Shown piece by piece: positions 1,697 through 32,399 of a stretch of 52,120 nucleotides of DNA. The notes below the pieces were generated by a model, which was given only the letters and a program-made list of their open reading frames with translations, searched no databases and was not told the origin of the DNA. Origin of the DNA: a virus; IMG/VR virus record IMGVR_UViG_3300021963_000173, positions 1-52,120 of that record, one strand, 5' to 3'. A program made the translations under genes and the position numbers. The stretch's first letter is position 1, and every line of letters begins with the position of its first letter.

Positions 1697-4600
1697 TTAA
1701 TCAACATTTGACGCATAATAGTTTCTGTCTGGCAGTTCTGCAGAGAATTCTTGTAAGAACTTGGCTTGAACAGTATTATCTTGCTGTAACGTTTGATCTC
1801 CATTAAGTGTGTACCAAATTTTTCCAGTTTTTTGCACCACACGAATTTGCAAATCTGGAATTATATTATTTGCTTCGTCCCTCATTAGGGAGTTAGTATT
1901 GATTTGTAAAATATAACTTCCATTTACTTTAGACACAGTAAAATCTGGATCTATCTCAATATCCCCTGTTTGACCTTGACTGTTAGTTTCATTAGAATCA
2001 AGTGTTATAGAAAAGTCGTGTTTAATTAACGGATTATTAGATTTAGCGGGCTTTAGTAATACTCGACCTGCCATATAAACTGTAATTTGATCCTCATAAG
2101 GGATTTGATCCGTAAAATTAAATTCGTCAATTAGAGCGTACTCGCCTAGTTCACCATCTGCAAGTGAGATCCAAAATCCGTTGCTATATCTTTCATATTG
2201 ATCCATTTGTTCATTATATCGGAAGTTAGAAGGGGTAGTAACTGTTTGAACAACAGATCCTTCTTTATAAGGAACAGTCTCACTTTGGGACACATTAAAA
2301 ACTTTACTACCTGCAGGGTAAACCTCTGCTGATCCAGTTCCACTGGTACCCCTAGTCAAATTAGATAGAACATTCCCATTTACAGACTTAAATTCAATTC
2401 GTTCACCGCCAATAAAAATAACGCCTGATCTAGTACTGTTGGTTTCTAACACTCCAAAAATGGAAGCATCTTGAACACGAATTTCCCTATCAGTAATCAA
2501 CAAAGGGCTAGTCAAAGAAGTAGTATTTTTCTTTGAAATTCTCTTAAATTGAACAGTATTAGTCATATCTTTAAACAAACGATAAGCTATAGGATCAACA
2601 GAAGTAACATCACTGATACTAGTAATAACTATTCTATCAGAATCAAGAATATCAAACTTATCAGAAAGTTTAACATAATAATTGTCTCTAATATCATAAT
2701 CCACGTTTGGTATCAATGGACGACCATTTAAGTCAACCCAAACATTGTTTATACTTAAAATTCTTCTGCTAACTTTGTATTCATTTAACAGTCTTTGACC
2801 TTTAAATACTTCTCTTCTCATTAGATTGCCGTCGTGGTTGGTATACGTGGTAACCACTATTTTTTGACCAGCTTCTAAATTTGCAAAGTTTGTAAAGATG
2901 ATTTGGCCATTTCTTATTAGATATTCTGCACCTCTCAATACGCTAATTGCAATAACATCACCAGCAAACGCAACACCAGAACTTAGTTGTACTGAGTTAG
3001 TAACATTATCAAATTCGTAGTCCCTATTTGTTGCCATAATTTTACCATTTCGATAAACTTCAATATCTGAAACCGATAAAGAGCGCGATATATAAGGGAA
3101 GTTTTTACCAAGTTCAAATGTTTGAGAATCTTGCGTTACCTCATAATATTCAGTTTCTGGTGGTAACAATCTTTGTCTAGGAAGGGCTTCCCAATAAAGT
3201 CCGGAATAGTCTTCATCTGGTCTATTTCCAGTATGTAATGACCAAAGAAGATTATTATTAGGAGTGTTAGATGTATTATTAGAAACATGAGCACTGACAC
3301 AGATATATCTATTATTTCCAAAATTAACAACGTCACCTAATACATAGTTAGTTGCTAACGCCCAAGAAGAGAAAGTTACTCCATTTAAACTATAGTAACT
3401 CTTGTGACCTAAAACACAGACATAAGATCTATTAAAGAATAATACAGTGTCATTCACATTGTACTCAATTCCATCTTCCCAACTGCCTTTCCAATTTATA
3501 CTAGAAGGCGTTAATCTTGTCACTGCTGCCATAACATGCAATGGTTCAATGTCTCCTGGCGGTCTAGTTAAAAGGTATGTATTATCATATGTAATTGAAA
3601 TTTCTTGATTGAATACTTCACTATATGTTTTAACAGATGATGAAAACAATATTACAGTGATTAAGTCCCCTGCACTTAAAGATGGACTGTTATTAATAAC
3701 AACTTTTGCTCTCTTTGATCTATTTGATTTCTTTTCTAATGTTGATGCATTAGGAATTGACAAATAGTAACTTCCAATATCGTCAATACTTACATTTAAA
3801 TCAATTTCAATCAAATTAGAAGTGCTATCAGAAGGAGTAACAATATAATTTACTCTATTCAATATGTTACTTCCACCAATAGACATATTCTGTATAGTAA
3901 CTGAAATTTTGTCAACTAAATTAGCAGTGCTTATTCCGTAATCAGTAGTAGTTAGAGTTACTAAAGAGTTGCCGTTTCCTAAAGATGCGACTGTAAAATC
4001 AGTACTTCTATCTAATAGGAAATTATTTACGTAAACATCAATAGATTGGTTACTGTCAATATAACCTGTAATTTCATATGTTGGATTTGTTCCATCATAC
4101 AAGTATTGATATGTTCTAACTAAATTACTTCCTGAACTTGGACTATTAAAAACAGTCATTGACAAGGTATCAAAAATTTCCCCCTTGACTAACTCTTCTG
4201 TTGATGGACTATGTTCTATTGATAAGAATTGTCCTCCATCAACTGATATATCGTCTGGACGTAAACCAGTCGCTGTTCTAAATCTAGTCTCCAAAGCATC
4301 TCTAATTGTTGTAAAATCTCCGCCACTTAAACTGGTGTCAAGGACAAAATCATCAGTTGGCAATGTAACTCCATCACTTAAAGATTGTCTAATTTCAATT
4401 TTAACGCCATTTGCAGGAATTACAGGAAGAGTTATTCTACTAGTTGTTCCATTAGAAATAATAGTCTTAAACAATGCATCATTATTTTTTTGATCAGGGG
4501 TCCCAAAATATTCGTCATCAACACGAACACCATTAAAGTAAAAGTTTATTTGTACACCCTGTAAAGGAACGTACCCTAAATCGTATGTGGTTGTTACTCC

Positions 4601-7600
4601 GTCACTGACAACTAATAAATCTTTATAGTCATTAACAAATGTGTCCCAACCCTGTGTAAACCAAGGCAATCCATCCCAACCACTACTTACACTAAAGTTT
4701 AATCCTTGAACTTGAACGCCACCAAATTCAACACCTTTCATTAATTGAGTGATATCTTTGCCTGGCATGCCAACGGTTGGTTGATAACTGGTAATAATTC
4801 TATCAACTGCATTTTGAATATTAATATTTTTTGCATATTGAACAGTTATTATAGAACCAACTGTTGGAACATTTTTAAATTTAATATAACCAATGAACTT
4901 ATTATGGCTCACTTCAGATTGTACTAATTGTATTAAGTAATCTGAATAAGGAACTGTATAGCCAACATTTGTAATACTATTAATTGAAGTAATAACAATT
5001 TTTTGATTATCTAATTCTGGTGGGAAGGTTAATTGGAATGTATCCTTATAGCTTTCTGTAGTTTGCTCAAAAATATCCTTAGTATATAAGAAATTCTTGA
5101 TATATTGAATTCTCAAACTTTGATTAGCTGGCAAGGCAACATTGAAGGTTATGATTGTACTCAAATCTGTTCTAAACGTAACTCTATACGCATCTTCTCC
5201 AACTTCCACTTCATTAATCAAAACTTTAATAGTTTCTTTATCTTGCATTGCAGGATAGTTATCGTCAGAATCGTCAACGGGATAGGTTAATACATAATTT
5301 AATGTAATTCCGTCAGTTGTAAAATTACGACTATAATATTGACCAGTGAATAATCCTTTATCAGAAGTCCTATCAAATCTTAATTTAACCTCGCTTGTTC
5401 TAATATAATCATTGAACAACTCTGCACTGGCTTTTGCCTGTACAAAATCTGTGTCATAATTTCCGCCACCTACTACAACTACGTTAGGAGTCAATAAGTA
5501 ACCTGTACCTGGATTAGTAACTACGATTTCAGATAATTTTCCATTACTAATACGTGCAATAGCAGTTGCTCCTCTACCTACATCTCCTTGGGCAGGGTTA
5601 ATAACAACTTGGGGAGGTAATCGATATCCATTGCCTGAATTGGCTACGTTGATTCGTTTTACACTAAACCCTTTATTGTCACTCCAATATTTGAATGGAT
5701 AAACGCTTTCAATAACAGAAGTAGATGGTATTGTTATATTGCCAGTTACATCAATATAAGAAGGCAAATCAAAATCTGTTACACCAACATTAATAATTTC
5801 TTTAACTTGGTGATTAGTTGTAATTTCTCTAAATTTAGATCTATATGGTTTAATTTCATTAACAAATTCTTCAACATAAGCAAAATCGTTAAATCTGTAA
5901 ATTTCTTTTTGATCTAATAATCCAGCATCAATTATTGGTGTAATAAAACTTGTTTTATAAACCCAATCAACAAAAAGTTGTTCACTTAGAACATATTTTA
6001 TGGCAACAAAAATAAATTTATTCCAATACTGTGCTAAATCTCCAACAAATATATCATTTTTAACGCTTACTAATATTTTTCTTATTTCAGTAGCATTAGA
6101 TTCATCAAAACTGTTTTGATCAAATCCAACAAAACTGTCATACCCAAGACCTGAAACAGATTTATTATATAACTTTTCACTAAATTGGATCGTGCCTCTT
6201 TCCCTATAAATTAAATCATAGTCGCTTAGATAGTTGCCCTTTCCTAATTCAACTTTTCTTAATATTATACTTCTTCCATCTCCTGTATTTCTAATTTTTA
6301 CAGTGTCGTCAATAGAAAAATTAGATGTTGCTAAATCTGATGTAAAATCAATAACAAATTTAGGTGGAATTTCGACACTGTAATCATTAGATACCCAGTC
6401 AACAAAACTCCAATAATTTCTAACATCGTATATTTGACTTATCTTTCTTTCAAAAATATTATTGATGGATTGATAAATTGCCCACTTATTAATTTCTTCA
6501 TCCAATGTTACTAGCACGGAATATGGGCGAACTAATAATTTTGGCGCTGAAGTATAATTAATACCTTGACTTAATATTTTAACTGATACAATTTTACCAG
6601 ACAAATCAATAGCTGTCTGTATTCTAGCACCGGTACCATCTCCAATTACTTCTACGGTTGGAGCAATTTTATAACCAACACCAGAATCAACAATGTTTAC
6701 ATTGACTAATCTTCCATTAATTATTTCTGCTTCTAATTCTCCTGCAATTTTACCAGCAGTTCCAATAGAAGACAAGTCTGCCTTTGACTCTACTATTTCA
6801 TCGTAATAACCGTAACTTTCTAAAGGCACAGCATCATAATCATCTAAATTATCTAAATTAACTTTGCCTACTACATCATTCTTTAGTAAAATGTTATTAA
6901 CAAATACCAATAAAGTTTTTAAAGCCTTTTCTCTATTGACAAACCAACTTTGTCTTGGATTGTTTAAAATGCCATAGCGCATCTTTGGAGACAATCTTGG
7001 ATCAGGAACTGAGTTTCCTAATTGATCTTGCCCTACCAAACTATCAAATAACTTGAGTTCAATCATTGGATCTAACACAGCATATTTGTTATTCTCGTTA
7101 ATTAACTGCCAATGACTATGACGATTGATTTCAACGTCACTATCTCTATAATAAATGTCAATGTTTATCTTTTTAGCATCGAGATCTTTCTTAGTATTTG
7201 CTAGAGCAATACTACTTGGGCTTAAAAAGGAAGCATATTTAATACCTTGTGTTTTTGGATCTTCTATAATTCTTGAACATTCAAAAGAACTAATTGATCT
7301 AAAATTCAAATCTGGAATGGTTATTTTGTTTCTAACCCAGAAGTAGTACACGTTTACAAAATCATTAATGATAGGGTCAAAATATTGATTAATAGAAACT
7401 ACAGTATTATCTGGATTTTTTGGTTGGCCACTAATACCCTGAGCTAATCCATCTTCAGTATCAGCTAAAGTTGCCCATTCACTTGGTCTATAATCACTCT
7501 TGACCCACTCATAGACGTCAACAGTAGCACCTGGGAACAATTTACCCCAGTTATTAATCCTAAATTCTGCAGATCCTTGCTCATACCATACATATCTCAA

Positions 7601-10600
7601 TGTACTCGTGTCTAACCAAAGTTCTCCTACGTGCTCCGCAGTCCAAGTAGTTTTATTATCAACACGATTTTTATTGCCTACATTAACTGCCACAGTATAA
7701 ACAGCAGGATCATAAGGAGTAATATATTTTATTTCTTGAATAACTTTGGTGGGAATTTTTCCTTTAACAGGATCATATATTTCGTAATTTTCTAAAATAT
7801 TCAAAGTATCAGTATTATAGCTGATTACTTTTTTAATCTTGTCTATATCCACTAATCCTTTATCTTGATATCTAGCTTTTGACCAAGACCAAGTGTCAGT
7901 GGAGCCATCATCTTTAGGGCTATTATCAAAGAAAACAACAGTACCTGCATCACTATATGTAACTACTGATGTTATATTTGGGTTGATTTCATCTTGTCCT
8001 TCAACTCTATATTCATATCTTGGAGCACCAACTAAACAGTATTTTCCGTTTGTGGCTAGGCCTGTTCCATACCCATCTGCATCAGAAGCATCACCGCTAA
8101 CTAATGATTCTCCAAATACAAAATAATTTCCTAATTTTTGATACAGGTAAACTAGTCCGCTATCTTGTGCTTTATCAACAAACCTTGTACTACCACTATC
8201 AAATGTAGTCCTTAAAGGTCTCAATGCAGATTTTGGATTTAAAACATATTCAGAACCATATAATTCTTGTGCGTTTATAATTCTTTCAATATATGAATCA
8301 AAGTACATATTTGAGGCTTGATCGCCTCCGGCAGCGGTTACTAATAAAATTTTTCCATCAGGGCTAACTTCAATGTTATTTCCAAACAACTCACCTGGCT
8401 CAGCAGATGGAGATGATATTTTTTGATTTAATACGTATTGTCCTGAAGTATTTTTATTAAGAGCATATACCATTCCTGCATCAAGTTTGTTTTGTGAAGA
8501 ATGATCGCTAGAAATTAATAACAAGCTACCATCTGAAGTCATTGAAATTTTGTCACCAAATCTGTCTTTTCTAGCAGTACCTAATCCAATAATTGTAATA
8601 GGTGTGGTAACATTTTCATTAGCCATTAATTCATTGGCTTTAAAAGTCAATGTTGTTGTAGAAATTCCATCAATTACAAATTCAAAATTATTAAATCTAG
8701 ATCCAGTAACTTGTACTGTTTGTCCAGTTCTAAAACCATCTTGAATAAAATTTCCTCTATTTCTAGTTAATGTGTATTCTGTTGCATCAAAAACAAGTGT
8801 TATTTCAACAGTAGAGTAAGATTTTGACACACCTTTTAATAATAAATCACCTGGCTCAATAAAATCATCTGCAAATATAGATTGTTTTAAAGTATATGTG
8901 TAATTTACAGCATCTTTTTGGAAAACAAATACTGCTCCAATATGCGCCTGTGTTCTATCTTTCAAATAAGAAGGAGCAGAAATTGCCACGATATTCCCAT
9001 CACTGGATGATGCAATGTCCCAACCAAATTCAGATCCTTGATTAATTTGTGTAATTCTAGATCTAAAATCAAAAGGTTGATTATTTAATAATACAACTTG
9101 CCAATCCTCGTTGCTATCTAAGTAGTATATAAATGTTGAGCCAGTTTTTGAATCTTGTCCTGGTGCTGAAACCATTATGAAAGGATTAGTGTTGCCAACT
9201 ATCTTTACTTTATGACCAAAATTTGATGCTCTTTCTGCACTAGGGCTTGCTAATATAATATCAGTTACAAATTCTGCACCAAGATCATCATACTTTACAA
9301 TTTTTATTAACCCTTCATCAAAAATTCCACTTGACTGATAGGTAAAATCAACTGGTTTCTTGATTGGTTCGTTTTCAAATGTAACTCCAGATGATATCCA
9401 TTTAACCCCAGAAGCATTAGGTGCTCCTGTAACAATATACCTTAAAGACAATGATTCGTTTTCCCAAATACCAATTGAGGCGCCGTGGTTTCTAGGCATA
9501 GCCTCAACTATTACTCCGTCTTTAAGAGTTTGAACAGATAATACATCGCTTACATTTTCTTCTACTAGATAACTTTGATCTAATTGAACGTCAGTTGATC
9601 CAAGAACTTCTCTTCGATAAACATAAATTCTACCACCTTCAACATTAGTTGCAGAAACTGCAAAAATATTAGTGACTGGTGCTATAGCTACTGCTTGACC
9701 AAAATATTGTTTGGCTTCTTCTTTGTAAGGTCGCAAAGGGGTAGGAATAGAAGAATTTTCTTTTTCTAAAACTAACCAATTGCCTGTTTCATCATCATCA
9801 ATCCAAACAAATTCACAGTTCTTCCAACGAGCTATTCCAGGTATATTTGCTAATTCGTCTAAATTAGTAAAACGAGTTTTTAAGAAATAATAAAGAGATC
9901 CGTCTAATATAGATTCAGAATCAGGAATATCATTAAACGTTGTACTTACAACAAAAGTATTAGGAGTGTCAATTCCAATAACTTCATATACACCATTCAA
10001 AGGATCTGGCATTCTAGCAACTGAAATAAAATCTCTTAATTTTAAATTATGTGCAACATCGGTTATAAATTGGATTAAATTGTTTGCATTGTCAACTTGA
10101 TAATTGATAATCTTAGAACTAGATTTGGTATACCTTTTAACACTCCAATCTCCCCTTTTATCCATTGCAACCCAAACAGTATCTCCTTCTTGTAAAGAGC
10201 CGCTTGCGCCTAAAGAAAGTATATTATTTTCATATAAAGCAGTAAATGTAACATCATCAATTCTAGGATAACCAGCAGTTGGCAATTTTTGATATTGTAG
10301 ATAACTGGTTCCATTTTCTTTGTTAACGTCTAACGTTGGCCAAGGTGCACCATTGAAGTCAATGGGTTTAATTAACAGACTTGACTGATCTACTGGATAG
10401 CTTCTAGGGGAAGTTATAACATTTTCGCCGTATACAAATTCAAATAATTGAGGATCTTGATTAAATTTATTTTGATCTAGAGAAAATTCTATTTCTTTAT
10501 AAGTATTCTCACCACCAAACATTCCTAATCTAATCGCCCACTCTTCTTGTATAGATAAATGTGATCCCAATGCTTGATTAGATGCTACAGAAAACTTTTC

Positions 10601-13600
10601 TAATGGTGCAACAGTTCCTTTTTCTTTAATAAATCCTTGATAAAACTTATATTGACTTGTTTCATCAACAATTAGACTGTTCAAGTAATTTCTAGGAACA
10701 TAGCCAATTAATTTTTGTGCATACTTTTTTTGGCTATCGTCAAAATTTTCACTTTCTAAACTATAAAAATCTTCAAACTGTGTTATTTTATATTCAAAAT
10801 TAGGAAGTAATTGTGCCACCGGAGCTTTCCCAAGCTCAGACCAATTCTCATAATTAAAAGTTTCTGCAGGAAGTAATTTAGTATTGGCCTGATAATATCT
10901 AGTTTGAAACTTAACAACATCACCAATATTGTAATCAACATTCACTTGCCAATCTTCTATTTTTGCGCTGTCGTACACGAACCCTGGGATATAAAAATCA
11001 CCAGTCCAATTATCAGTAATATATCCAGAAACCTTAAACCTATTTTGTCTATATCCAGAATACGGTTGATATATCAAATCATTAAAAATAGTAAAGTTGT
11101 CAAAGACAACAATATGTTCTTTTTGTACTAGATTTATTTTTACAAAATATATTCCATCATTAGAAATTTTAGATGTATCAATTAAGAAAGTGTTATCATC
11201 TCTGACAATATTGATTCTGTTTTTATCTATTGCACTTCCATCTGATTTCAATAATGAATAATCATAAAATAAATCATTTATATCTTCTACAACTGATTTT
11301 TCACTATAAAACTTTACAGTATCTGCAAAAGGCGCTAAACTAATAACACTATTATTAGCCCAATTTTGTACACTCCAAAATAAGAATTCTTTTCCAGCTA
11401 ACTTCCAATCTGCAACAACTTCTAACTCAGATAAGATTTTATCAAAAATAAATCCTTCAGATTCTAAATAGCTGCCATATCCTAGAATAAAATTAAACAC
11501 CTCTTGAGAAGATTTTAAAATAGTTCCATAAGGAATCAACGTAATAGTATCTTCAAAATTTGATGGGACTGTTGCATCAATTCCACCAATTGTTGGAAGA
11601 TATGGAAGAGGATAATATAGAGCTGGATCAAAAGACTCTTTAGTCAAATGGGTTGACACTGCTCTATAATACTTTTGTCCAACTGATACTATACTTCCAC
11701 CAGTAATATTTGCATTTGGTGCCCAGTATATAAAGGATTCAGTTGTTCCTCCTACTGTAATAACTGGATCATTTGGCGCGGTAATTGCTTTATTAATTTT
11801 AAAATAAGGATTAACATTATCATAACCCTTAATAATGAATCCAGTAGTACCCCTTTCAACAATTATTCCTGACATTGAAAGTGTTTTAATAGGATTGCCA
11901 GTGGATAAAAATAATTGATAATTTTCCTGTGGAACAAAAACTTTATCTACTGTTTTGTAACTGGTAACTGTTTCCAATGCAACATTAAACTTGTCCTTGC
12001 TGGCGAACCCTCCTAATTTATACACTAAATTAGATTTGATATTATTGATATAATTTTTTAATGTAGTAGCAGGAGAAGTATTTCTTAATCTTAGATATTC
12101 TACTATATAAGGAGAATAGCCTGTTGCAAAAACAAATCCTTTGTTAAAGTCTGAATAAATTTTTAAATCTTTAGGAGATATTCTTTGGTTCGTGTCTTTA
12201 TATATTGTTTGATTGGCATTATTAAAAGTATTCCTAGAAGTATCAAAGCACAGAGTTAGATACTTTGCAGGAAGATTCAATGCCATAGCAATTTGAATAG
12301 CAAATGGATATAAATGGCTCCTTCTCCAAGAACTCTCAGCAGGACCCATATCGCCAAACTTCCATTGTTGATATCTTTGAGAAAAGTCAAAATACTTAAC
12401 AACATTTACATCAAATGGATCTTTTAAGTTTCCGTAAGAATCAACAGGCAATATGTTGGATAGGCCTAATCTTTTATATCTACTATCATAACCTTTTCTA
12501 TTGCCATCTCTAATGTAACCATCTTCTAAATCTTTCCACAAAACATCATTACCTGCACTATAAGGTGCTGGTCCGTATGTGGTCTCCCACCAGTCTGGCT
12601 TAATACTGAAACCCAGCATTTCCCAAGGATGAGAATGCGGTCTATCCGTATCAAAATAGTATCTATATATCTTTCTCCATGATCCATTTAAAACTGATTC
12701 TGGATTTAATTCTCCAACAGAGTTAATAAAATTATAGCTGAAATTACCGCCATAGATTTCATTTTCGTTTGTTTCATAGTCAATGTTATAAAGTCCAGTC
12801 CATCTTAAGAACTCTTCTTCAATAGTTTTGTTAACTCGAACTAATTCTTCTTTATTACTTCTAAAAATTCCTGGGACAACATCAATTACATCAAAAATTC
12901 TGTTGTCGTAAAAAGAATTTAAATTATTATAAATCCTTGTTTCTAATTCTAATAATAATAAATCTCTGTCATCGCCAAAACAAACTGTTATTGACCCATC
13001 ATGTCCTTGAATCACATCAGTAGGTTCTAAGTACGTTTCATCTTTGTAAATTTCTGGAATAAATGCAGGATAAAGTCCTAACTTAGTAGGACTGAATGGC
13101 ATGCAAGAACCGTAGATGTTGTTATAGAATTTAATTAAAACTTTGTCATTTAAAGTTAAAGTCCTATCAAATGTAACCAAAGGTTCAACTGTATCAAAAT
13201 GATAATCTTTATCTTTTATTAACAACTCATTGTTTAGATAAACAAGTATTGAATTATTGTTTAATTCTTTAGAGTTATAAATTTTAGATCCATAAGCATA
13301 AGATATAATATTGATGTCTCTAACTGTATATTCATAATCTCTCTTATTCAACCCATAAGGTACCATATCACTATAGTAGAAAGTTGATTTGGTGTTTTTG
13401 TCTTTACTAACATCTGTGATGATATCATCTAATGCAGAAGAAATGGAAGTATAAGAAGGTAAATCAACAAACTTTTGCAGAAGTAAAGTTTTATATCGTT
13501 GATATTCTAGAGCCGCCCAACGAATAGAACTGATAAAATTGATTTGTTTATCGCATAGCATTGCGCCAGCCATTGAAACAAGGCCTTGATGCTGTACAAA

Positions 13601-15964
13601 TCTTCTGCCATAAGAATATAAATTAGGAAGATCTCTCAAATTGTCTTTATTGACTGTTATTCCAATAGCTTTAGATGCATTTAATAAAATTGAGTTAACA
13701 TGGTCATTTATTTCTGCATAGCTGACAGTAAAAGGAACTTCATTTAATGGGTTGTTAATTAAATTTATTGGAGTTTCGTATTTTCCTTCTATTCCTTTGT
13801 CATATACTGGCAATGATCTAATTGTAATTACATCATTTTTTATTAAGGGTACATTGAAATTAATAAAATAAGAGTCAAATGTTACATCTGAAGAAACTGT
13901 ATAATCTATTTGCGATAATAATGTTCCATTTTTAAAAACTCTAATTGCATTTTTTGGAGTATTAACATTAATACTATTAAATTCTAAGTATTCTTCGCCA
14001 CCCATTGCAACTTGTTGATCAATAATTTCTTGAATTGATGGTGCATTGGTTAATGTCCAAAAATTTTCATATCTAGAATCATCAACTTTAATAAATCCGT
14101 CTTTAAAATCTACAGTGATTAAAGTTCCATTAATATCAAAGTAACTTGATGACTCTGTTTCTATAAAATTTTCAAATAGATAACCACCTACATTTGATAC
14201 GTTGGCATATTTTAAAGGAAATCCCAAGACACTGTCATTAATTCCTGTTCCTATTTGATAACCGAACAATTTTGTTCCACTGAAATTGTTATTGGTATAT
14301 GAGGAATCTGAAAAACTCTTACCTGTATTATCAAATAAATCAAACAAAGGTGATTGATTCAATGTTGTTTTTCTTTGAGCAGGGACCCATGCATCGTTTT
14401 TGTATAACCAAGTTGTTCCGCCATTTTCATTGCCTGACAATACTAATAATCCTTGATTTTCTAAAGGATCACTATCTATAACTTGTTCTAAATGCAATTT
14501 TTTATTGCCATCAATGTCTAAAAACTTTACTTCAAATATTTTGTTTCTTATACTTGCATCTTTTTCTGCGGTAAAGATTACTCTATTTCCATTCTGTAGT
14601 TGTATGCCATCCACAAAGAATCCAACAGATCCTTCAACTGAGCTGTATGCATCAGTTACTTTTGTATCTAAAAAATCAACATATCTTTTAGCTTGTGATG
14701 AAAAATTATAAAGACGAATATTTGGTTGAAATTCAATGATAGGTCTGCTTGCTCTAGTTCCATAGTTAGGTTCAACACCGTTAATTTCAGAGCTTAAAGT
14801 AACTACATCAATGTGAAACCATCTATTGTATCTAGACCAAGGATTTTTATCTTTACTAGATCTATTGATTAATATATAATCTGGTGTTAATGGATAATTG
14901 CTGACTTGATCAAATGGCAAATCGTCAAAAGAAGTTTCATCAAAAGAACTTTCAACTTTAGAAGAATATCCTTCAATTGTAACTAATGATTCATAGTCGA
15001 CCAGCGTAATTGATTCGCCAACACCTTCTACAATATATGTTTTTTCTCTATAAGATTCTGGCATAACAACATTAGAAAATCTAATTTTCATGCCATTGCT
15101 TAACTTAAACTTTCCTACTACTTCGTAATTCTTTTTTCCAAGTATATCTTCTTCAACATTTAGTGCAGTATTTTCAGTTTTATTTCTTATTAAAAATTTT
15201 CCAAAAGTTGTACTGTCTTTTCCGCTGATGTAAAACAATGTTGCGGGTATATCGTCAGTTACCTCAAATACTACATTTCCCTTGTTAGTTCCGTTGTTTA
15301 ATACATTTTCAACTAAATCTAAACTTCCACTTGTTCTCTTAGTCTTGATATAAAAAGGATTATCTACTGTATCAACATCAAAAACATAAGTCATACCTCG
15401 ATATAGTGTTATTGTTGGATTGACTGCGATTGAATCACTACTAAAATTCCAATATTCAGAATTTTCATCGCTAACAATGCCAACTTTAACTGTTGTATTC
15501 GTTACTTTTTCATCACCAATAACCAAAATAGTTGGAGGACCTTCTGGTATCCAAACATAATTTCTATAATTGATAAATTTATCTATATCAATATGTGGAT
15601 TCCAAGTATAGCTTTGTTGTTTAAAAAGTCTATCTTGATTAGATACATCAGACCCATAAAATTTTAAACTATTAAGAATGTCTTCGTATGATTTGGCAAA
15701 TTCAACATTGTCAGTAATGGCATTTCTAGTTACAATTCCTGGCTCTACTTCATAATCTGTTCTAAAAGATTTTTCTAAATTTGAATTGATGTATGAATCA
15801 GTTTCAGGGTTGAAGTTTGTTACGGTTCTTTCGCCAATAAAGCCATCAATCTTTTTAAGTTTAGGTTGTTGTATTAATTGATCTATTGTTCCAGAAAGAA
15901 AACGGTTGTTCGCGTCAGTCCTAAAAATAACTGGTAATAGGTCTAATGATTTTCTTTTACTCAT
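1697..15964 (-). CDS. Giant baseplate wedge/fibre protein (4755 aa), gp7 position
   Basis: The frame is open over 14.3 kb. The N-terminus (LDLLPVIFRTDANNRFLSGT, then GFIGERTVTNF) matches the opening of the large structural protein that follows gp6 in marine T4-like phages. Regions seen: about 150-265, a cupredoxin-like beta domain without copper ligands; about 1670-1715 and 4160-4270, W/Y-rich carbohydrate-binding-like modules (NIGDVVKFQTRYY, VLGDVVNFGNNRYICV); about 2075-2690, seven FG-GAP-like repeats; about 3085-3150 and 3425-3530, paired GxGY beta repeats (GVGYKIAPTVEV, GNGYRLPPQVVI). The last 1200 residues are mostly fibre-type beta repeats. T4 gp7 is about 1030 residues, so this is over four times longer. 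It starts 10 bases after gp6, with GGA before the ATG. I infer a wedge backbone fused to fibre modules; sequence alone does not show whether it is processed. Confidence 0.8.
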   Translation of the reverse strand: MSKRKSLDLLPVIFRTDANNRFLSGTIDQLIQQPKLKKIDGFIGERTVTNFNPETDSYINSNLEKSFRTDYEVEPGIVTRNAITDNVEFAKSYEDILNSLKFYGSDVSNQDRLFKQQSYTWNPHIDIDKFINYRNYVWIPEGPPTILVIGDEKVTNTTVKVGIVSDENSEYWNFSSDSIAVNPTITLYRGMTYVFDVDTVDNPFYIKTKRTSGSLDLVENVLNNGTNKGNVVFEVTDDIPATLFYISGKDSTTFGKFLIRNKTENTALNVEEDILGKKNYEVVGKFKLSNGMKIRFSNVVMPESYREKTYIVEGVGESITLVDYESLVTIEGYSSKVESSFDETSFDDLPFDQVSNYPLTPDYILINRSSKDKNPWSRYNRWFHIDVVTLSSEINGVEPNYGTRASRPIIEFQPNIRLYNFSSQAKRYVDFLDTKVTDAYSSVEGSVGFFVDGIQLQNGNRVIFTAEKDASIRNKIFEVKFLDIDGNKKLHLEQVIDSDPLENQGLLVLSGNENGGTTWLYKNDAWVPAQRKTTLNQSPLFDLFDNTGKSFSDSSYTNNNFSGTKLFGYQIGTGINDSVLGFPLKYANVSNVGGYLFENFIETESSSYFDINGTLITVDFKDGFIKVDDSRYENFWTLTNAPSIQEIIDQQVAMGGEEYLEFNSINVNTPKNAIRVFKNGTLLSQIDYTVSSDVTFDSYFINFNVPLIKNDVITIRSLPVYDKGIEGKYETPINLINNPLNEVPFTVSYAEINDHVNSILLNASKAIGITVNKDNLRDLPNLYSYGRRFVQHQGLVSMAGAMLCDKQINFISSIRWAALEYQRYKTLLLQKFVDLPSYTSISSALDDIITDVSKDKNTKSTFYYSDMVPYGLNKRDYEYTVRDINIISYAYGSKIYNSKELNNNSILVYLNNELLIKDKDYHFDTVEPLVTFDRTLTLNDKVLIKFYNNIYGSCMPFSPTKLGLYPAFIPEIYKDETYLEPTDVIQGHDGSITVCFGDDRDLLLLELETRIYNNLNSFYDNRIFDVIDVVPGIFRSNKEELVRVNKTIEEEFLRWTGLYNIDYETNENEIYGGNFSYNFINSVGELNPESVLNGSWRKIYRYYFDTDRPHSHPWEMLGFSIKPDWWETTYGPAPYSAGNDVLWKDLEDGYIRDGNRKGYDSRYKRLGLSNILPVDSYGNLKDPFDVNVVKYFDFSQRYQQWKFGDMGPAESSWRRSHLYPFAIQIAMALNLPAKYLTLCFDTSRNTFNNANQTIYKDTNQRISPKDLKIYSDFNKGFVFATGYSPYIVEYLRLRNTSPATTLKNYINNIKSNLVYKLGGFASKDKFNVALETVTSYKTVDKVFVPQENYQLFLSTGNPIKTLSMSGIIVERGTTGFIIKGYDNVNPYFKINKAITAPNDPVITVGGTTESFIYWAPNANITGGSIVSVGQKYYRAVSTHLTKESFDPALYYPLPYLPTIGGIDATVPSNFEDTITLIPYGTILKSSQEVFNFILGYGSYLESEGFIFDKILSELEVVADWKLAGKEFLFWSVQNWANNSVISLAPFADTVKFYSEKSVVEDINDLFYDYSLLKSDGSAIDKNRINIVRDDNTFLIDTSKISNDGIYFVKINLVQKEHIVVFDNFTIFNDLIYQPYSGYRQNRFKVSGYITDNWTGDFYIPGFVYDSAKIEDWQVNVDYNIGDVVKFQTRYYQANTKLLPAETFNYENWSELGKAPVAQLLPNFEYKITQFEDFYSLESENFDDSQKKYAQKLIGYVPRNYLNSLIVDETSQYKFYQGFIKEKGTVAPLEKFSVASNQALGSHLSIQEEWAIRLGMFGGENTYKEIEFSLDQNKFNQDPQLFEFVYGENVITSPRSYPVDQSSLLIKPIDFNGAPWPTLDVNKENGTSYLQYQKLPTAGYPRIDDVTFTALYENNILSLGASGSLQEGDTVWVAMDKRGDWSVKRYTKSSSKIINYQVDNANNLIQFITDVAHNLKLRDFISVARMPDPLNGVYEVIGIDTPNTFVVSTTFNDIPDSESILDGSLYYFLKTRFTNLDELANIPGIARWKNCEFVWIDDDETGNWLVLEKENSSIPTPLRPYKEEAKQYFGQAVAIAPVTNIFAVSATNVEGGRIYVYRREVLGSTDVQLDQSYLVEENVSDVLSVQTLKDGVIVEAMPRNHGASIGIWENESLSLRYIVTGAPNASGVKWISSGVTFENEPIKKPVDFTYQSSGIFDEGLIKIVKYDDLGAEFVTDIILASPSAERASNFGHKVKIVGNTNPFIMVSAPGQDSKTGSTFIYYLDSNEDWQVVLLNNQPFDFRSRITQINQGSEFGWDIASSSDGNIVAISAPSYLKDRTQAHIGAVFVFQKDAVNYTYTLKQSIFADDFIEPGDLLLKGVSKSYSTVEITLVFDATEYTLTRNRGNFIQDGFRTGQTVQVTGSRFNNFEFVIDGISTTTLTFKANELMANENVTTPITIIGLGTARKDRFGDKISMTSDGSLLLISSDHSSQNKLDAGMVYALNKNTSGQYVLNQKISSPSAEPGELFGNNIEVSPDGKILLVTAAGGDQASNMYFDSYIERIINAQELYGSEYVLNPKSALRPLRTTFDSGSTRFVDKAQDSGLVYLYQKLGNYFVFGESLVSGDASDADGYGTGLATNGKYCLVGAPRYEYRVEGQDEINPNITSVVTYSDAGTVVFFDNSPKDDGSTDTWSWSKARYQDKGLVDIDKIKKVISYNTDTLNILENYEIYDPVKGKIPTKVIQEIKYITPYDPAVYTVAVNVGNKNRVDNKTTWTAEHVGELWLDTSTLRYVWYEQGSAEFRINNWGKLFPGATVDVYEWVKSDYRPSEWATLADTEDGLAQGISGQPKNPDNTVVSINQYFDPIINDFVNVYYFWVRNKITIPDLNFRSISSFECSRIIEDPKTQGIKYASFLSPSSIALANTKKDLDAKKINIDIYYRDSDVEINRHSHWQLINENNKYAVLDPMIELKLFDSLVGQDQLGNSVPDPRLSPKMRYGILNNPRQSWFVNREKALKTLLVFVNNILLKNDVVGKVNLDNLDDYDAVPLESYGYYDEIVESKADLSSIGTAGKIAGELEAEIINGRLVNVNIVDSGVGYKIAPTVEVIGDGTGARIQTAIDLSGKIVSVKILSQGINYTSAPKLLVRPYSVLVTLDEEINKWAIYQSINNIFERKISQIYDVRNYWSFVDWVSNDYSVEIPPKFVIDFTSDLATSNFSIDDTVKIRNTGDGRSIILRKVELGKGNYLSDYDLIYRERGTIQFSEKLYNKSVSGLGYDSFVGFDQNSFDESNATEIRKILVSVKNDIFVGDLAQYWNKFIFVAIKYVLSEQLFVDWVYKTSFITPIIDAGLLDQKEIYRFNDFAYVEEFVNEIKPYRSKFREITTNHQVKEIINVGVTDFDLPSYIDVTGNITIPSTSVIESVYPFKYWSDNKGFSVKRINVANSGNGYRLPPQVVINPAQGDVGRGATAIARISNGKLSEIVVTNPGTGYLLTPNVVVVGGGNYDTDFVQAKASAELFNDYIRTSEVKLRFDRTSDKGLFTGQYYSRNFTTDGITLNYVLTYPVDDSDDNYPAMQDKETIKVLINEVEVGEDAYRVTFRTDLSTIITFNVALPANQSLRIQYIKNFLYTKDIFEQTTESYKDTFQLTFPPELDNQKIVITSINSITNVGYTVPYSDYLIQLVQSEVSHNKFIGYIKFKNVPTVGSIITVQYAKNINIQNAVDRIITSYQPTVGMPGKDITQLMKGVEFGGVQVQGLNFSVSSGWDGLPWFTQGWDTFVNDYKDLLVVSDGVTTTYDLGYVPLQGVQINFYFNGVRVDDEYFGTPDQKNNDALFKTIISNGTTSRITLPVIPANGVKIEIRQSLSDGVTLPTDDFVLDTSLSGGDFTTIRDALETRFRTATGLRPDDISVDGGQFLSIEHSPSTEELVKGEIFDTLSMTVFNSPSSGSNLVRTYQYLYDGTNPTYEITGYIDSNQSIDVYVNNFLLDRSTDFTVASLGNGNSLVTLTTTDYGISTANLVDKISVTIQNMSIGGSNILNRVNYIVTPSDSTSNLIEIDLNVSIDDIGSYYLSIPNASTLEKKSNRSKRAKVVINNSPSLSAGDLITVILFSSSVKTYSEVFNQEISITYDNTYLLTRPPGDIEPLHVMAAVTRLTPSSINWKGSWEDGIEYNVNDTVLFFNRSYVCVLGHKSYYSLNGVTFSSWALATNYVLGDVVNFGNNRYICVSAHVSNNTSNTPNNNLLWSLHTGNRPDEDYSGLYWEALPRQRLLPPETEYYEVTQDSQTFELGKNFPYISRSLSVSDIEVYRNGKIMATNRDYEFDNVTNSVQLSSGVAFAGDVIAISVLRGAEYLIRNGQIIFTNFANLEAGQKIVVTTYTNHDGNLMRREVFKGQRLLNEYKVSRRILSINNVWVDLNGRPLIPNVDYDIRDNYYVKLSDKFDILDSDRIVITSISDVTSVDPIAYRLFKDMTNTVQFKRISKKNTTSLTSPLLITDREIRVQDASIFGVLETNSTRSGVIFIGGERIEFKSVNGNVLSNLTRGTSGTGSAEVYPAGSKVFNVSQSETVPYKEGSVVQTVTTPSNFRYNEQMDQYERYSNGFWISLADGELGEYALIDEFNFTDQIPYEDQITVYMAGRVLLKPAKSNNPLIKHDFSITLDSNETNSQGQTGDIEIDPDFTVSKVNGSYILQINTNSLMRDEANNIIPDLQIRVVQKTGKIWYTLNGDQTLQQDNTVQAKFLQEFSAELPDRNYYASNVD

Positions 15965-30017: not shown

Positions 30018-30215
30018 ATGAGTGATACTATTAAATTAATTGAAGACACATTGACACAGTGGAAAGCAGAAGACGAAAAGTTTGTTAAGGGCAATAACGC
30101 CGCTGGCACTAGAGCACGGAAGGCTCTAGCAGAACTAGCGAAAGCAGTCAAAGCTCGAAGAAACGAGATCACCGCAGAAAAGAACGCCAGAGTAGAAGCA
30201 AAAAAGGCAGCGTAA
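30018..30215 (+). CDS. Histone H1-like (Hc1-type) DNA-binding protein (65 aa)
   Basis: The segment KGNNAAGTRARKALAELAKA, followed by VKARRNEI, closely follows the Hc1 pattern (a GNxAAGTRxRKxLxEL core and a basic helix) of small bacterial histone H1-like proteins. At 65 residues it is essentially that domain alone, with alternating basic and alanine residues. AAAGGA lies about 7 bases before the ATG. It is in the early-type recombination operon, so a role in coating or compacting phage DNA during replication, or in host nucleoid takeover, is a reasonable inference. Its stop overlaps the start of the 51-residue gene (TAATG). Confidence 0.72.
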   Translation: MSDTIKLIEDTLTQWKAEDEKFVKGNNAAGTRARKALAELAKAVKARRNEITAEKNARVEAKKAA

Positions 30216-30370
30216 TGTCCCAAACAGTCGACGTATCACAAGTTAAAGAACTACAAAAACAAATTGCTCAATTAGAAAAAATGATGCAACAACTAATCAA
30301 GCGAGTAGATCTTTTGGACCGTGAACGTCGACGTATCAAGCAAGAAATTGGAAATGTTAAAAATAAATGA
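30215..30370 (+). CDS. Small coiled-coil protein (51 aa)
   Basis: ATG at 30215 shares a base with the upstream stop, and its TGA shares bases with the start of the GIY-YIG gene, so the frame fits exactly between two real genes with overlaps on both sides. The protein is one long predicted coiled coil with heptad leucine/isoleucine positions (VKELQKQIAQLEKMMQQLIK, then LDLL-type spacing and RERRRIKQEI) and a basic C-terminus. Probably a dimeric partner or regulator; similarity to slyX-type small coiled coils is by shape only. Confidence 0.65.
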   Translation: MSQTVDVSQVKELQKQIAQLEKMMQQLIKRVDLLDRERRRIKQEIGNVKNK

Positions 30371-30792
30371 CTTGGGAGTATCAAGGCAATGTAGTTACAG
30401 AACTACCTGAAGATTGTGTGGGTTTTGTTTATATCATAACCAACATTCTAACAGGTAGAAAATACATTGGTAAGAAACTAGCCAAATTTAGCAAAACGAC
30501 ATATCGCGTAATAAAATTAAAAAACGGCACTAAAAAGAAAAAGAAAATCAGAAGTAAAATAGACAGCGATTGGCAAGAATATTATGGCTCAAGTCCAAAT
30601 CTTACAGCAGACATAGAAAAATTAGGCAAAGAAAATTTCAAAAGAGAAATACTGCATTATTGTGACAGTAAATCACAAACATCATATCTAGAAGCAAAAG
30701 AGCAATTTTTAAGGCAGGTATTAGAATCAGATGATTACTATAACGGACATATACAAGTCCGTGTCCATGGCTCTCACATACTAAAATCCTAA
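30367..30792 (+). CDS. SegE-like GIY-YIG endonuclease (141 aa)
   Basis: The GIY-YIG core is visible as GFVYIITN (19-26) and RKYIGKK (31-37), followed by a lysine-rich insert (KLKNGTKKKKKIRSK), SDWQEYYGSS, LGKENFKREIL and the glutamate-bearing SYLEAKEQF (about 107-114). This is the pattern of SegE-like nucleases in T4-type phages. Some relatives are homing enzymes that spread between co-infecting phages; others are resident genes. There is no separate C-terminal DNA-binding domain beyond about residue 120. It overlaps the coiled-coil gene (ATGA) and is the last gene before the structured non-coding region. Confidence 0.82.
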   Translation: MTWEYQGNVVTELPEDCVGFVYIITNILTGRKYIGKKLAKFSKTTYRVIKLKNGTKKKKKIRSKIDSDWQEYYGSSPNLTADIEKLGKENFKREILHYCDSKSQTSYLEAKEQFLRQVLESDDYYNGHIQVRVHGSHILKS

Positions 30793-31178
30793 GGCTTATC
30801 AGTGGTTACAGCTCGCGCAGGCTAAGTTCGTGCGCCAAAGAATCCTACGGAATGGTGGGGGACGGAAATCTTTTTGCCACAAAAAGTACTCAGCGACTAT
30901 CCTTAACAGGACGACGATCGTTAAGACCTACGATTTTGCTGTTTGAATGGAGTTAAAAATAGGCCAAAGGATGGGAACATCAACGTGATTCCCAGTGCTA
31001 TACAGAATGTTAGTGTATTATGTATAGTATGCCGTCAGAATAAGACGTGGCTCGAGGTACAGGCTGACCGCCTCTGTAATGCCATAACACTAAGTGGATT
31101 GTGATACTCAGATGAGAACTTTCTTTCTTTGCCCGGCAACGGGCGAAGTGTGGACGTTCTATCTAGATGAGTATTAAC
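30793..31178 (+). ncRNA. Candidate large structured RNA, family unknown
   Basis: No credible coding frame is seen between the GIY-YIG stop and 31296. The plus strand holds many local helices: GCGCA/TGCGC near 30815-30836, CTTAAC/GTTAAG near 30902-30925, GGGA-AC-ATCA/TGAT-TCCC near 30973-30993, GTGCTATAC/GTATAGTAT near 30995-31029, CGTC/GACG near 31033-31047, TACAG/CTGTA near 31058-31078, and a 9-bp CTTTGCCCG/CGGGCGAAG stem closed by a GCAA tetraloop at 31127-31148. The last sits inside GATACTCA/TGAGTATT and AGAAC/GTTCT pairings (31103-31174). The nested helices and GNRA loop argue for a functional RNA. It is not tRNA, tmRNA, RNase P RNA or a recognisable group I intron. Strand is inferred from the GCAA loop; ends are approximate. 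Confidence 0.5.
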
Positions 31179-31261
31179 AACTGCTTCGCAGTTATTCTTC
31201 TTAATCAAATGAAATAAAATGTGAGTTACGAAGTAACGAACAAATGAGCGTTAGCTCATTT
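31179..31261 (+). terminator. Cluster of three short hairpins, possible 3' end of the RNA
   Basis: Three perfect stem-loops follow in a row: AACTGC-TTC-GCAGTT (31179-31193, then ATTCTTCTT), GTTAC-GAA-GTAAC (31225-31237), and AAATGAGC-GTTA-GCTCATTT (31242-31261). None has a long run of T, so they are weak as classical terminators. They could protect the RNA 3' end, or stop transcription from both sides between the convergent gene blocks. Confidence 0.4.
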
Positions 31262-31295: not shown

Positions 31296-31523
31296 TTAGA
31301 TAAAAGGCATTTTAGTTTCTTTTGTAAATTCAAAATTCTCTTTGATTATATCTTGTAGGATATCTAATTGTTCAGAGCTCAGTGCGTAGGTTTGATCTAA
31401 ATTAATAGCACCTCGCATGTGCCAACTTACCCTGAATGCTTCTTTAGTTAAGGCCTTTGCCTGTGCCTCAAGTTTGTCTGTAAACTCGAGAATTTCGGGC
31501 ATTGTCATGGACAAAAGCCTCAT
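31296..31523 (-). CDS. Small protein coupled to gp26 (75 aa)
   Basis: Recognisable as a short protein of marine T4-like phages by SWHMRGAINLDQ, ALSSEQLDILQDIIKENFEF and the terminal TKETKMPFI. The N-terminal half is an amphipathic helix (MPEILEFTDKLEAQAKALTK). The outer ATG overlaps the gp26-like stop as ATGA; Met6 (31506-31508) has GAGG 9 bases upstream and may be the true start. Lying after a gp26/tail-chaperone-like gene and across from the tape measure, it may be a tail-assembly chaperone partner or hub-assembly factor, by inference only. Confidence 0.68.
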   Translation of the reverse strand: MRLLSMTMPEILEFTDKLEAQAKALTKEAFRVSWHMRGAINLDQTYALSSEQLDILQDIIKENFEFTKETKMPFI

Positions 31524-32377
31524 TCGAAAAAACTTGCGTAGTCTAATTCAAATTTAGTAGTAATAGTTGGTGGTACACCTTGTTCTATATATTTAGGCGG
31601 AGTTTGTACTGTAAGTTCTGAATACGTGTTCTTTTCATTGAGCTCTCTATATCGTTTGCTAATAGCTTTAAATACAGTGGGTTCACTGTTGTTTAAAAAC
31701 TCCCTAATATATTCAAAATCATCAGTACTACCATTGGTAGTGTCAATACGTTCAATACCGTTAACAACCTGTATGACGTTAGCGTCGGCTAGTTTTTCGG
31801 CAGCTTGATTCATTAACTGTACTTTTAGATCTTCTGATATTTCTGGATTAATTAGTTGTCTTAGTATACGTTCTGCTTCAAAACTTACTATATTAGCCTG
31901 TGTTAAGTTCCTATAACTAATTGGTTTAATATGCACTGTGATATCTTCATTGACCTTAATCACTGGGTCCCATACTACGTTATCTATAACATTGTCTAGC
32001 ATCGGTCTTAGATCAATCTCGTAAGGTTCTGTTTCACTGGTACCAGGTATAGCAATGTCTAAATTGACTTTTTCACCAAAACTAGCTATTCTAATGGCTA
32101 TTAAGATAGCATCTAAATCAACACTGGGCATTTGCCAAGCATCTTTGATAGAAGGTATACAACTCTGTACTACTGCTACTGTGGCATACCCATTGAGTAG
32201 AGCATCAGGAGTCTTCAACAACAATTCATCTTTGACAGTCATAGCATAGACTTCGTACTCATTCTGCTCATTGATTTCAATGCTACCTTCAGACCAATAA
32301 TGTCCTTTGCTAGGCAATCTTAGAAAGATTTTAGGCCTACGCATAAATGCGGTTAGGGGATTTTTGCTGTTTTCCAC
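31520..32377 (-). CDS. 26: gp26-type baseplate hub/assembly protein (285 aa)
   Basis: The N-terminal 120 residues fit the T4 gp26 family: NPLTAFMRRPKIFLRLPSKG, WSEGSIEI, YEVYAMTVKDELLLKTPDAL, QSCIPSIKDAWQMPSVDLDA and ILIAIRIASFG. The C-terminal part is helical and less conserved. In T4 this family helps assemble the central hub. The frame can be opened upstream to a TTG at 32392, but GTG at 32375-32377 has GGAG 9 bases before it and is the better start. It has its own minus-strand late octamer at 32411-32419 and sits back to back with the tape measure gene. Confidence 0.82.
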   Translation of the reverse strand: MENSKNPLTAFMRRPKIFLRLPSKGHYWSEGSIEINEQNEYEVYAMTVKDELLLKTPDALLNGYATVAVVQSCIPSIKDAWQMPSVDLDAILIAIRIASFGEKVNLDIAIPGTSETEPYEIDLRPMLDNVIDNVVWDPVIKVNEDITVHIKPISYRNLTQANIVSFEAERILRQLINPEISEDLKVQLMNQAAEKLADANVIQVVNGIERIDTTNGSTDDFEYIREFLNNSEPTVFKAISKRYRELNEKNTYSELTVQTPPKYIEQGVPPTITTKFELDYASFFE

Positions 32378-32391
32378 GATGTGTAACTCCA

Positions 32392-32399
32392 ATAAATAT
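32392..32399 (+). promoter_or_regulatory. Late promoter octamer ATAAATAT before the tape measure
   Basis: Plus-strand octamer in AACTCCAATAAATATAG, 45 bases before the 32445 ATG. The predicted start near 32405 nearly coincides with that of the opposing late promoter at 32411-32419. Confidence 0.6.

Follow-up and report, generated by a model that had tools for sequence, protein, structure and literature searches.

The viral sequence analysed here (IMG/VR record IMGVR_UViG_3300021963_000173, positions 1 to 52,120; the whole stretch of 52,120 nucleotides is hereafter called the window) holds, at 30793-31178, about 390 bases that an earlier note had described as gene-free and as a candidate for a large structured phage RNA of an unassigned or new family. 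This locus raises the question of which RNA it encodes, how far the RNA extends and what it could do for the phage. No plausible gene is found in this stretch, the only ORFs inside being short ones of 53-57 aa, and the existence of a structured RNA is borne out by covariation together with folding energy.

Extent of the RNA and its relation to RF01718

The Infernal search against Rfam that had been proposed returned RF01718 (Polynucleobacter-1) as the sole match in the whole window, at 30810-30944 on the plus strand, with 85.1 bits against a gathering cut-off of 37 and an E-value of 1e-16. The segment scores well above gathering and covers all of model positions 1-141, and because of this full-length match the candidate is, over its first third, a described but orphan motif. 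In its source paper, RF01718 is a likely RNA, possibly cis-regulatory, listed from Burkholderiales, fresh water and estuary, and is not presented as an RNA of T4-like phages (Weinberg et al., 2010, PMC2864571); a literature search, with most subscription literature outside its reach, found it named in no other paper. The 141-nt model spans only the 5' third of the RNA, a shortfall that limits the model and not the membership of the window RNA, and conservation and covariation continue for about 230 nt 3' of the model, to about 31178 in the homologue alignment. What the model leaves out is the 5' arm of a first pseudoknot (PK1) and, on the 3' side, two pseudoknots, a GGUAC core and a module with twin heptamers.

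The full RNA body, of about 380-390 nt on the plus strand, was delimited at 30802-31178 by nhmmer/MAFFT conservation and covariation among 111 homologues. The improved boundaries are 30802, where the 5' arm of PK1 lies 10 nt past the stop codon of the preceding gene, and about 31195; the probable 3' end is a terminator-like hairpin on the plus strand (31179-31193, AACTGC-TTC-GCAGTT) followed by ATTCTTCTTA. Two more hairpins noticed by inspection within 31225-31260 (31225-31237 and 31243-31260) may constitute a bidirectional terminator between convergent operons. A promoter scan gave scores no better than those of shuffles.

The failure to fit the sequence to tRNA, tmRNA, RNase P or introns was confirmed with Rfam and ARAGORN. 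A tRNA or tmRNA was rejected, as neither program gave a match, and so was a group I or II intron, considered on account of the GIY-YIG neighbour and of an R-like CUCAGCGACUA: no P7-type pairing and no Rfam match were found, and the flanks in the window are complete separate genes, not split exons.

Fold, covariation and pseudoknots

The plus strand of 30793-31178 folds at -118.3 kcal/mol (z = -2.67), with one of 100 shuffles as good, and the minus strand reaches z = -1.72 against shuffles. The local helices seen in the single sequence are supported by the homologues: in a hand-drawn structure of 55 pairs that includes pseudoknots, 96.0% of the cells are paired across 55 homologues and 38 of the 55 pairs show double-sided changes, with 412 doubly changed cells, a number that falls to 118 for shuffled data and to 29-56 once the partner columns are displaced by 1-3 positions. 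Covariation compared with substitutions re-dealt along the tree (111 sequences) gave 18 canonical pairs with E < 0.05, the E-values being rough since they come from our own R-scape-like script with 20 simulations. The RNAalifold consensus score was -133.7 for 107 sequences; for the 55-sequence alignment, where the energy is weaker because of gap columns, 55 pairs were predicted, 30 of them with compensatory changes, and those long-range pairs whose columns do not vary are uncertain. Of the refuting conditions named in the note, neither a lack of covariation among homologues nor a coding reading applies: the covariation is strong, and no coding reading was found.

From a structural perspective, the RNA body is a pseudoknotted fold with three long-range pseudoknots, all on the plus strand. 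PK1, absent from the Rfam model, joins 30802-30805 (GUGG) to the hairpin loop 30877-30880 (CCAC), with 4/4 pairs doubly changed and 85.5% of cells paired; the hairpin that offers this loop (30870-30874/30882-30886) is 98% paired with 3/5 pairs doubly changed. The 5' part also contains the stem 30815-30819/30831-30835 (97.8% paired, 5/5 doubly changed) and the stem 30891-30896/30936-30941 (100% paired, 4/6 doubly changed), which encloses the hairpins 30900-30911 and 30916-30935. A fourth, short pseudoknot between 30810-30812 and 30821-30823 is weakly supported by the 55-sequence alignment. Further 3', the long variable stem 30997-31009/31016-31029 (13 pairs in the alifold consensus) carries the loop 31010-31015 (UUAGUG) that forms PK3 with 31088-31093 (CACUAA), 6/6 pairs being doubly changed and 98.1% of cells paired, and PK2 links 31034-31038 (GUCAG) to 31064-31068 (CUGAC), with 3/5 pairs doubly changed and 91.9% paired. 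The stem 31048-31051/31081-31084 and its inner stem 31054-31057/31071-31074 frame a near-invariant GGUAC-GG...ACCGCC core, and the pair 31048/31084 gives the strongest covariation of the whole RNA.

The nested domain that had been drawn at 31103-31174 is retained only in part. Its GCAA-capped stem is present, inside the plus-strand hairpin 31126-31149, whereas the outer AUACUCA/UGAGUAU stem belongs to this phage only; across the family, the pairing in the domain is RGAU/AUCU (31110-31113 with 31161-31164). The suggestion of tertiary docking through a GNRA loop fails because the loop of this hairpin is not conserved, reading GTGC, GAGC, CTAG, GCAA and others within the family.

Related architectures at the same site

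Some of the GIY-YIG loci hold other RNA architectures at the site occupied in the window by the type 1 RNA: type 2 in at least 120 contigs and type 3 in 36, to which the RNA of one further locus (L146) might be added as a type 4. Types 2 and 3 had no Rfam match in cmscan searches. Both covary, with 39 of 87 pairs doubly changed in type 2 (77 sequences) and 18 of 105 in type 3 (18 sequences). The core GGUACCGG...ACCGCC is common to types 1 and 2, and all of types 1-3 share the 3' module while their 5' bodies differ; the 5' domains are thus exchangeable around a common 3' module.

This organisation, a conserved 3' part and a variable 5' part in a phage-borne ornate RNA, recalls GOLLD, which the note had named as an example of large phage RNAs. 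In other respects the two differ: no match to the GOLLD covariance model (RF02032) appears in cmscan even at permissive E-values, the window RNA measures about 390 nt compared with more than 800 nt, and its site, next to a GIY-YIG gene, is fixed. ROOL is likewise a large pseudoknotted phage RNA, but there is no Rfam match to it and size and neighbours differ.

Genomic context and distribution

Upstream of the RNA, on the plus strand, lies a SegE-like GIY-YIG gene of 141 aa (30367-30792; PF19835, E = 1.1e-33) whose stop codon is about 10 nt before the RNA. Downstream, on the minus strand, stand a convergent small gene (31296-31523) and a T4 baseplate-type gene (31520-32392; PF12322, E = 1.3e-10), neighbours that recur in many homologues. 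The recurrent order, that of a T4-like lineage, is gp47, gp46, small genes, GIY-YIG, the RNA and then baseplate genes on the opposite strand. Among loci with room for it, the GIY-YIG gene is upstream in 79/95 of type 1, a count whose misses include chance pattern matches, in 88/90 of type 2 and in 17/17 of type 3. Many phage records label SegE-like GIY-YIG proteins 'NAD synthetase' (phrog_447), which is probably a propagated misannotation. In homologous loci (L197 and others), the interval from gp46 to GIY-YIG often contains genes resembling radical-SAM enzymes (CNAACPQCPR motif). In the window itself, a 65-aa protein similar to Hc1 histone H1 (30018-30215; PF07432, E = 9.8e-14) is encoded in the phage operon adjoining gp46, and an ORF of 4,755 aa (1697-15964) has CBM_5_12 and FG-GAP matches.

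A DNA pattern taken from the RNA core hits at least 120 viral contigs, some by chance, and about 100 true members are left after removal of duplicates. No member of types 1, 2 or 3 was found in the isolated phages searched; their GIY-YIG relatives occupy other positions, and no match to the RNA accompanies them. Each of 13/13 type 1 viral records has one RF01718 copy, and each of 11/11 phage contigs of 85-133 kb has one twin-heptamer module. Because of the single RF01718 copy per record, the RNA is no element jumping between phage sites, and a mobile GIY-YIG and RNA cassette of the homing type was rejected, the RNA being single-copy and syntenic in phages with the exception of one tRNA array and rare bacterial copies.

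These exceptions bear on the manner of action. In the viral contig L054 (996-11187), the RNA is found without a GIY-YIG gene, inside an array of 18 tRNAs and a permuted tmRNA match. In bacteria, it occurs in 5 of 201 genomes of the family of a Methylococcaceae MAG, again without the GIY-YIG gene, and at least four of these copies (L202:2581-2991, L371:900-1316, L369:1841-2221, L370:1007-1327) diverge from a gene with a capsid-targeting-like protein start. They could be remnants of a phage satellite. One of them has a resolvase-type recombinase nearby.

A cis-acting element, protecting or controlling the gp47-gp46-GIY-YIG mRNA from its 3' UTR or forming the 5' leader of whichever gene follows, would account for the start of the RNA about 10 nt past the GIY-YIG stop in most phages and agrees with the tag possibly cis-regulatory (PMC2864571). 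It is also in keeping with the downstream genes: the next ORF is co-directional in 59 of the 127 loci that have one downstream, and 41 of these 59 have a T4 capsid-targeting-like N-terminus of MKxxEII type, compared with 13 of 973 other ORFs. The other 68 loci have a convergent next gene, an extra gene can intervene between GIY-YIG and the RNA, and neither a 3' UTR nor a 5' leader role can cover all loci because of the L054 array and the Methylococcaceae copies. We regard a cis role as rather unlikely, and place it first among the alternatives to the reading preferred below, followed by cut sites of one ribonuclease, GOLLD-like self-assembly and recombination at the DNA level. The genes of MKxxEII type (at L041, L090, L135 and other loci) have differing bodies, and the side of the RNA is likely a hot spot for cargo genes.

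The twin heptamers and their identity rule

In the 3' module, a heptamer preceded by ACTC, a hairpin and a second heptamer preceded by ATCT follow one another on the plus strand; in the window both copies read AGATGAG (31110-31116 and 31165-31171), offset by 55 nt. At this offset the alignment shows covariation of same letters, not of complementary ones, at 31105/31160, 31110/31165, 31114/31169 and 31116/31171, with 31111/31166 as a fifth same-letter pair and 31105/31160 looser (84/108). The heptamer differs between phages and is almost always identical within one RNA: the two copies agree in 182 of 187 modules of all types versus 30 when copies are shuffled, a count in which the motif search itself fixes part of the heptamer, and in the alignment, free of that constraint, identity reaches 107-108 of 108. 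On the tree, the two copies changed together on one branch in 21/21 cases at position 1, in 13/13 at position 5, in 5/6 at position 2 and in 11/13 at position 7. A scan of the viral collection found first letters G-G in at least 120 contigs, A-A in at least 120, G-A in 2 and A-G in none, and the bacterial copy in L202 has its heptamer changed to ACTTAAAGAG in both places. When modules were counted by the heptamer only, with no regard to the RNA body, all 229 distinct ones proved to be parts of RNAs of type 1 or type 2.

Such a rule cannot arise from pairing of the two copies with each other. Pairing of copy 1 with AUCU (31161-31164) is plausible, yet it cannot explain the A/G identity because U accepts both. 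A complementary partner was sought in cis and within about 5 kb, where the complement of the heptamer is not enriched and is no commoner than for shuffled heptamers, and among 54 orthogroups shared by phages (11 contigs), where the single apparent match adjoins the RNA, most likely because it represents the antisense strand of the module. A likeness to Box C/D (GAUGA) was discarded, being broken in over half of the variants. The bypass of T4 gene 60 similarly involves a hairpin flanked by a short sequence and its identical repeat some 50 nt away, the first of them followed by a stop codon. Here both copies carry an RSA codon followed by UAA/UGA, no reading frame runs into them and the spacing varies, and this candidate was rejected as well.

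The identity could have a cause at the DNA level, the repeats being crossover sites of a recombinase or products of gene conversion and the heptamers having no function in the RNA. Strict identity combined with free sequence does resemble the overlap regions of recombinases, and a resolvase-type gene lies near one bacterial copy. Nevertheless, ACTC and ATCT, in front of the heptamers, remain distinct from each other as the 7 nt beside each change in concert, no single-copy (excised) form occurs among full-length aligned homologues and no recombinase was seen beside phage copies, which makes this origin very improbable.

By analogy with type III antitoxins, the RNA might be a counter-defence decoy in which a single sequence-specific host ribonuclease would cut at both heptamers; this would free the intervening hairpin, and the RNA would keep the enzyme occupied. 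In type III systems the antitoxin is a pseudoknotted repeat RNA that its own toxin cuts, and pseudo-antitoxins are known from phages (PMC5086642). Sites cut by the same enzyme would also have to stay identical while drifting jointly, as observed, and ToxI shares with the window RNA the pseudoknots and a repeated sequence co-varying as identity. We nonetheless consider this function improbable: there are two 7-nt copies only instead of tandem repeats of 34-36 nt, the body is much larger, no ToxN-like or other toxin gene is among the neighbours tested, and the sites cut by known toxins are A-rich, which RSATRAN is not.

Only a small chance is given to an RNA-only multimer like those of GOLLD and ROOL, which would self-assemble through the 3' module. 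The analogy draws on the shared organisation of conserved 3' and variable 5' parts (PMC12286853), the phage origin and, in one case, the proximity to tRNAs, as well as on the self-complementarity of AUCURGAU at copy 2 in common variants. The variants GCAT, GAAT and ACAT, however, lose this self-complementarity and still obey the identity rule, intermolecular pairing needs no identical letters, and the RNA is half the length of GOLLD.

A proposed role

The reading towards which we lean, with modest confidence, is that of a structural noncoding RNA, about 390 nt long and stand-alone, which belongs to a T4-like lineage and acts in trans, its twin heptamers offering two sites to a single partner. 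The analysis establishes the structure, the synteny, the single copy, the exchangeability of the 5' domains and the identity rule; transcription, action in trans and the single partner are what we infer. The RNA would probably be transcribed as the last part of the gp47-gp46-GIY-YIG unit, or have a start of its own, and would end at the terminator hairpin. Its exchangeable 5' body may act as a scaffold, with the 3' module presenting one short word twice to a shared trans partner, which could be a protein, a ribonuclease or a host RNA; when the partner shifts between phages or hosts, both heptamers would shift together. Action in trans is favoured by the RNAs without GIY-YIG in L054 and in Methylococcaceae, the latter divergent from their neighbour, and by the 68/127 convergent next genes. 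Against it count the many cases in which the RNA directly follows a stop codon, which also fits a 3'-UTR element, the lack of a complementary partner in the searches above and the tag possibly cis-regulatory of the 2010 listing.

More tentatively, and with considerable doubt, the types may form a phage RNA superfamily with exchangeable bodies, in which the heptamers of the 3' module follow a code of identity and not of complementarity, one partner reading both sites. To our knowledge, recognition of an RNA through such an identity code has been described for no Rfam family.

Significance for phage RNA biology

The RNA in its full length and its sister architectures, as well as the synteny in the T4-like lineage and the coupled heptamers, were found neither in Rfam nor in the literature searched, from which subscription titles were mostly absent. 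An orphan Rfam motif of 2010 is recognised as a fragment of a widespread RNA of T4-like freshwater phages, and at least two further architectures are missing from Rfam. Screens that seek complementary covariation only can miss functional couplings of this kind, and the identity-coupled heptamers make the contacts of the RNA directly testable.
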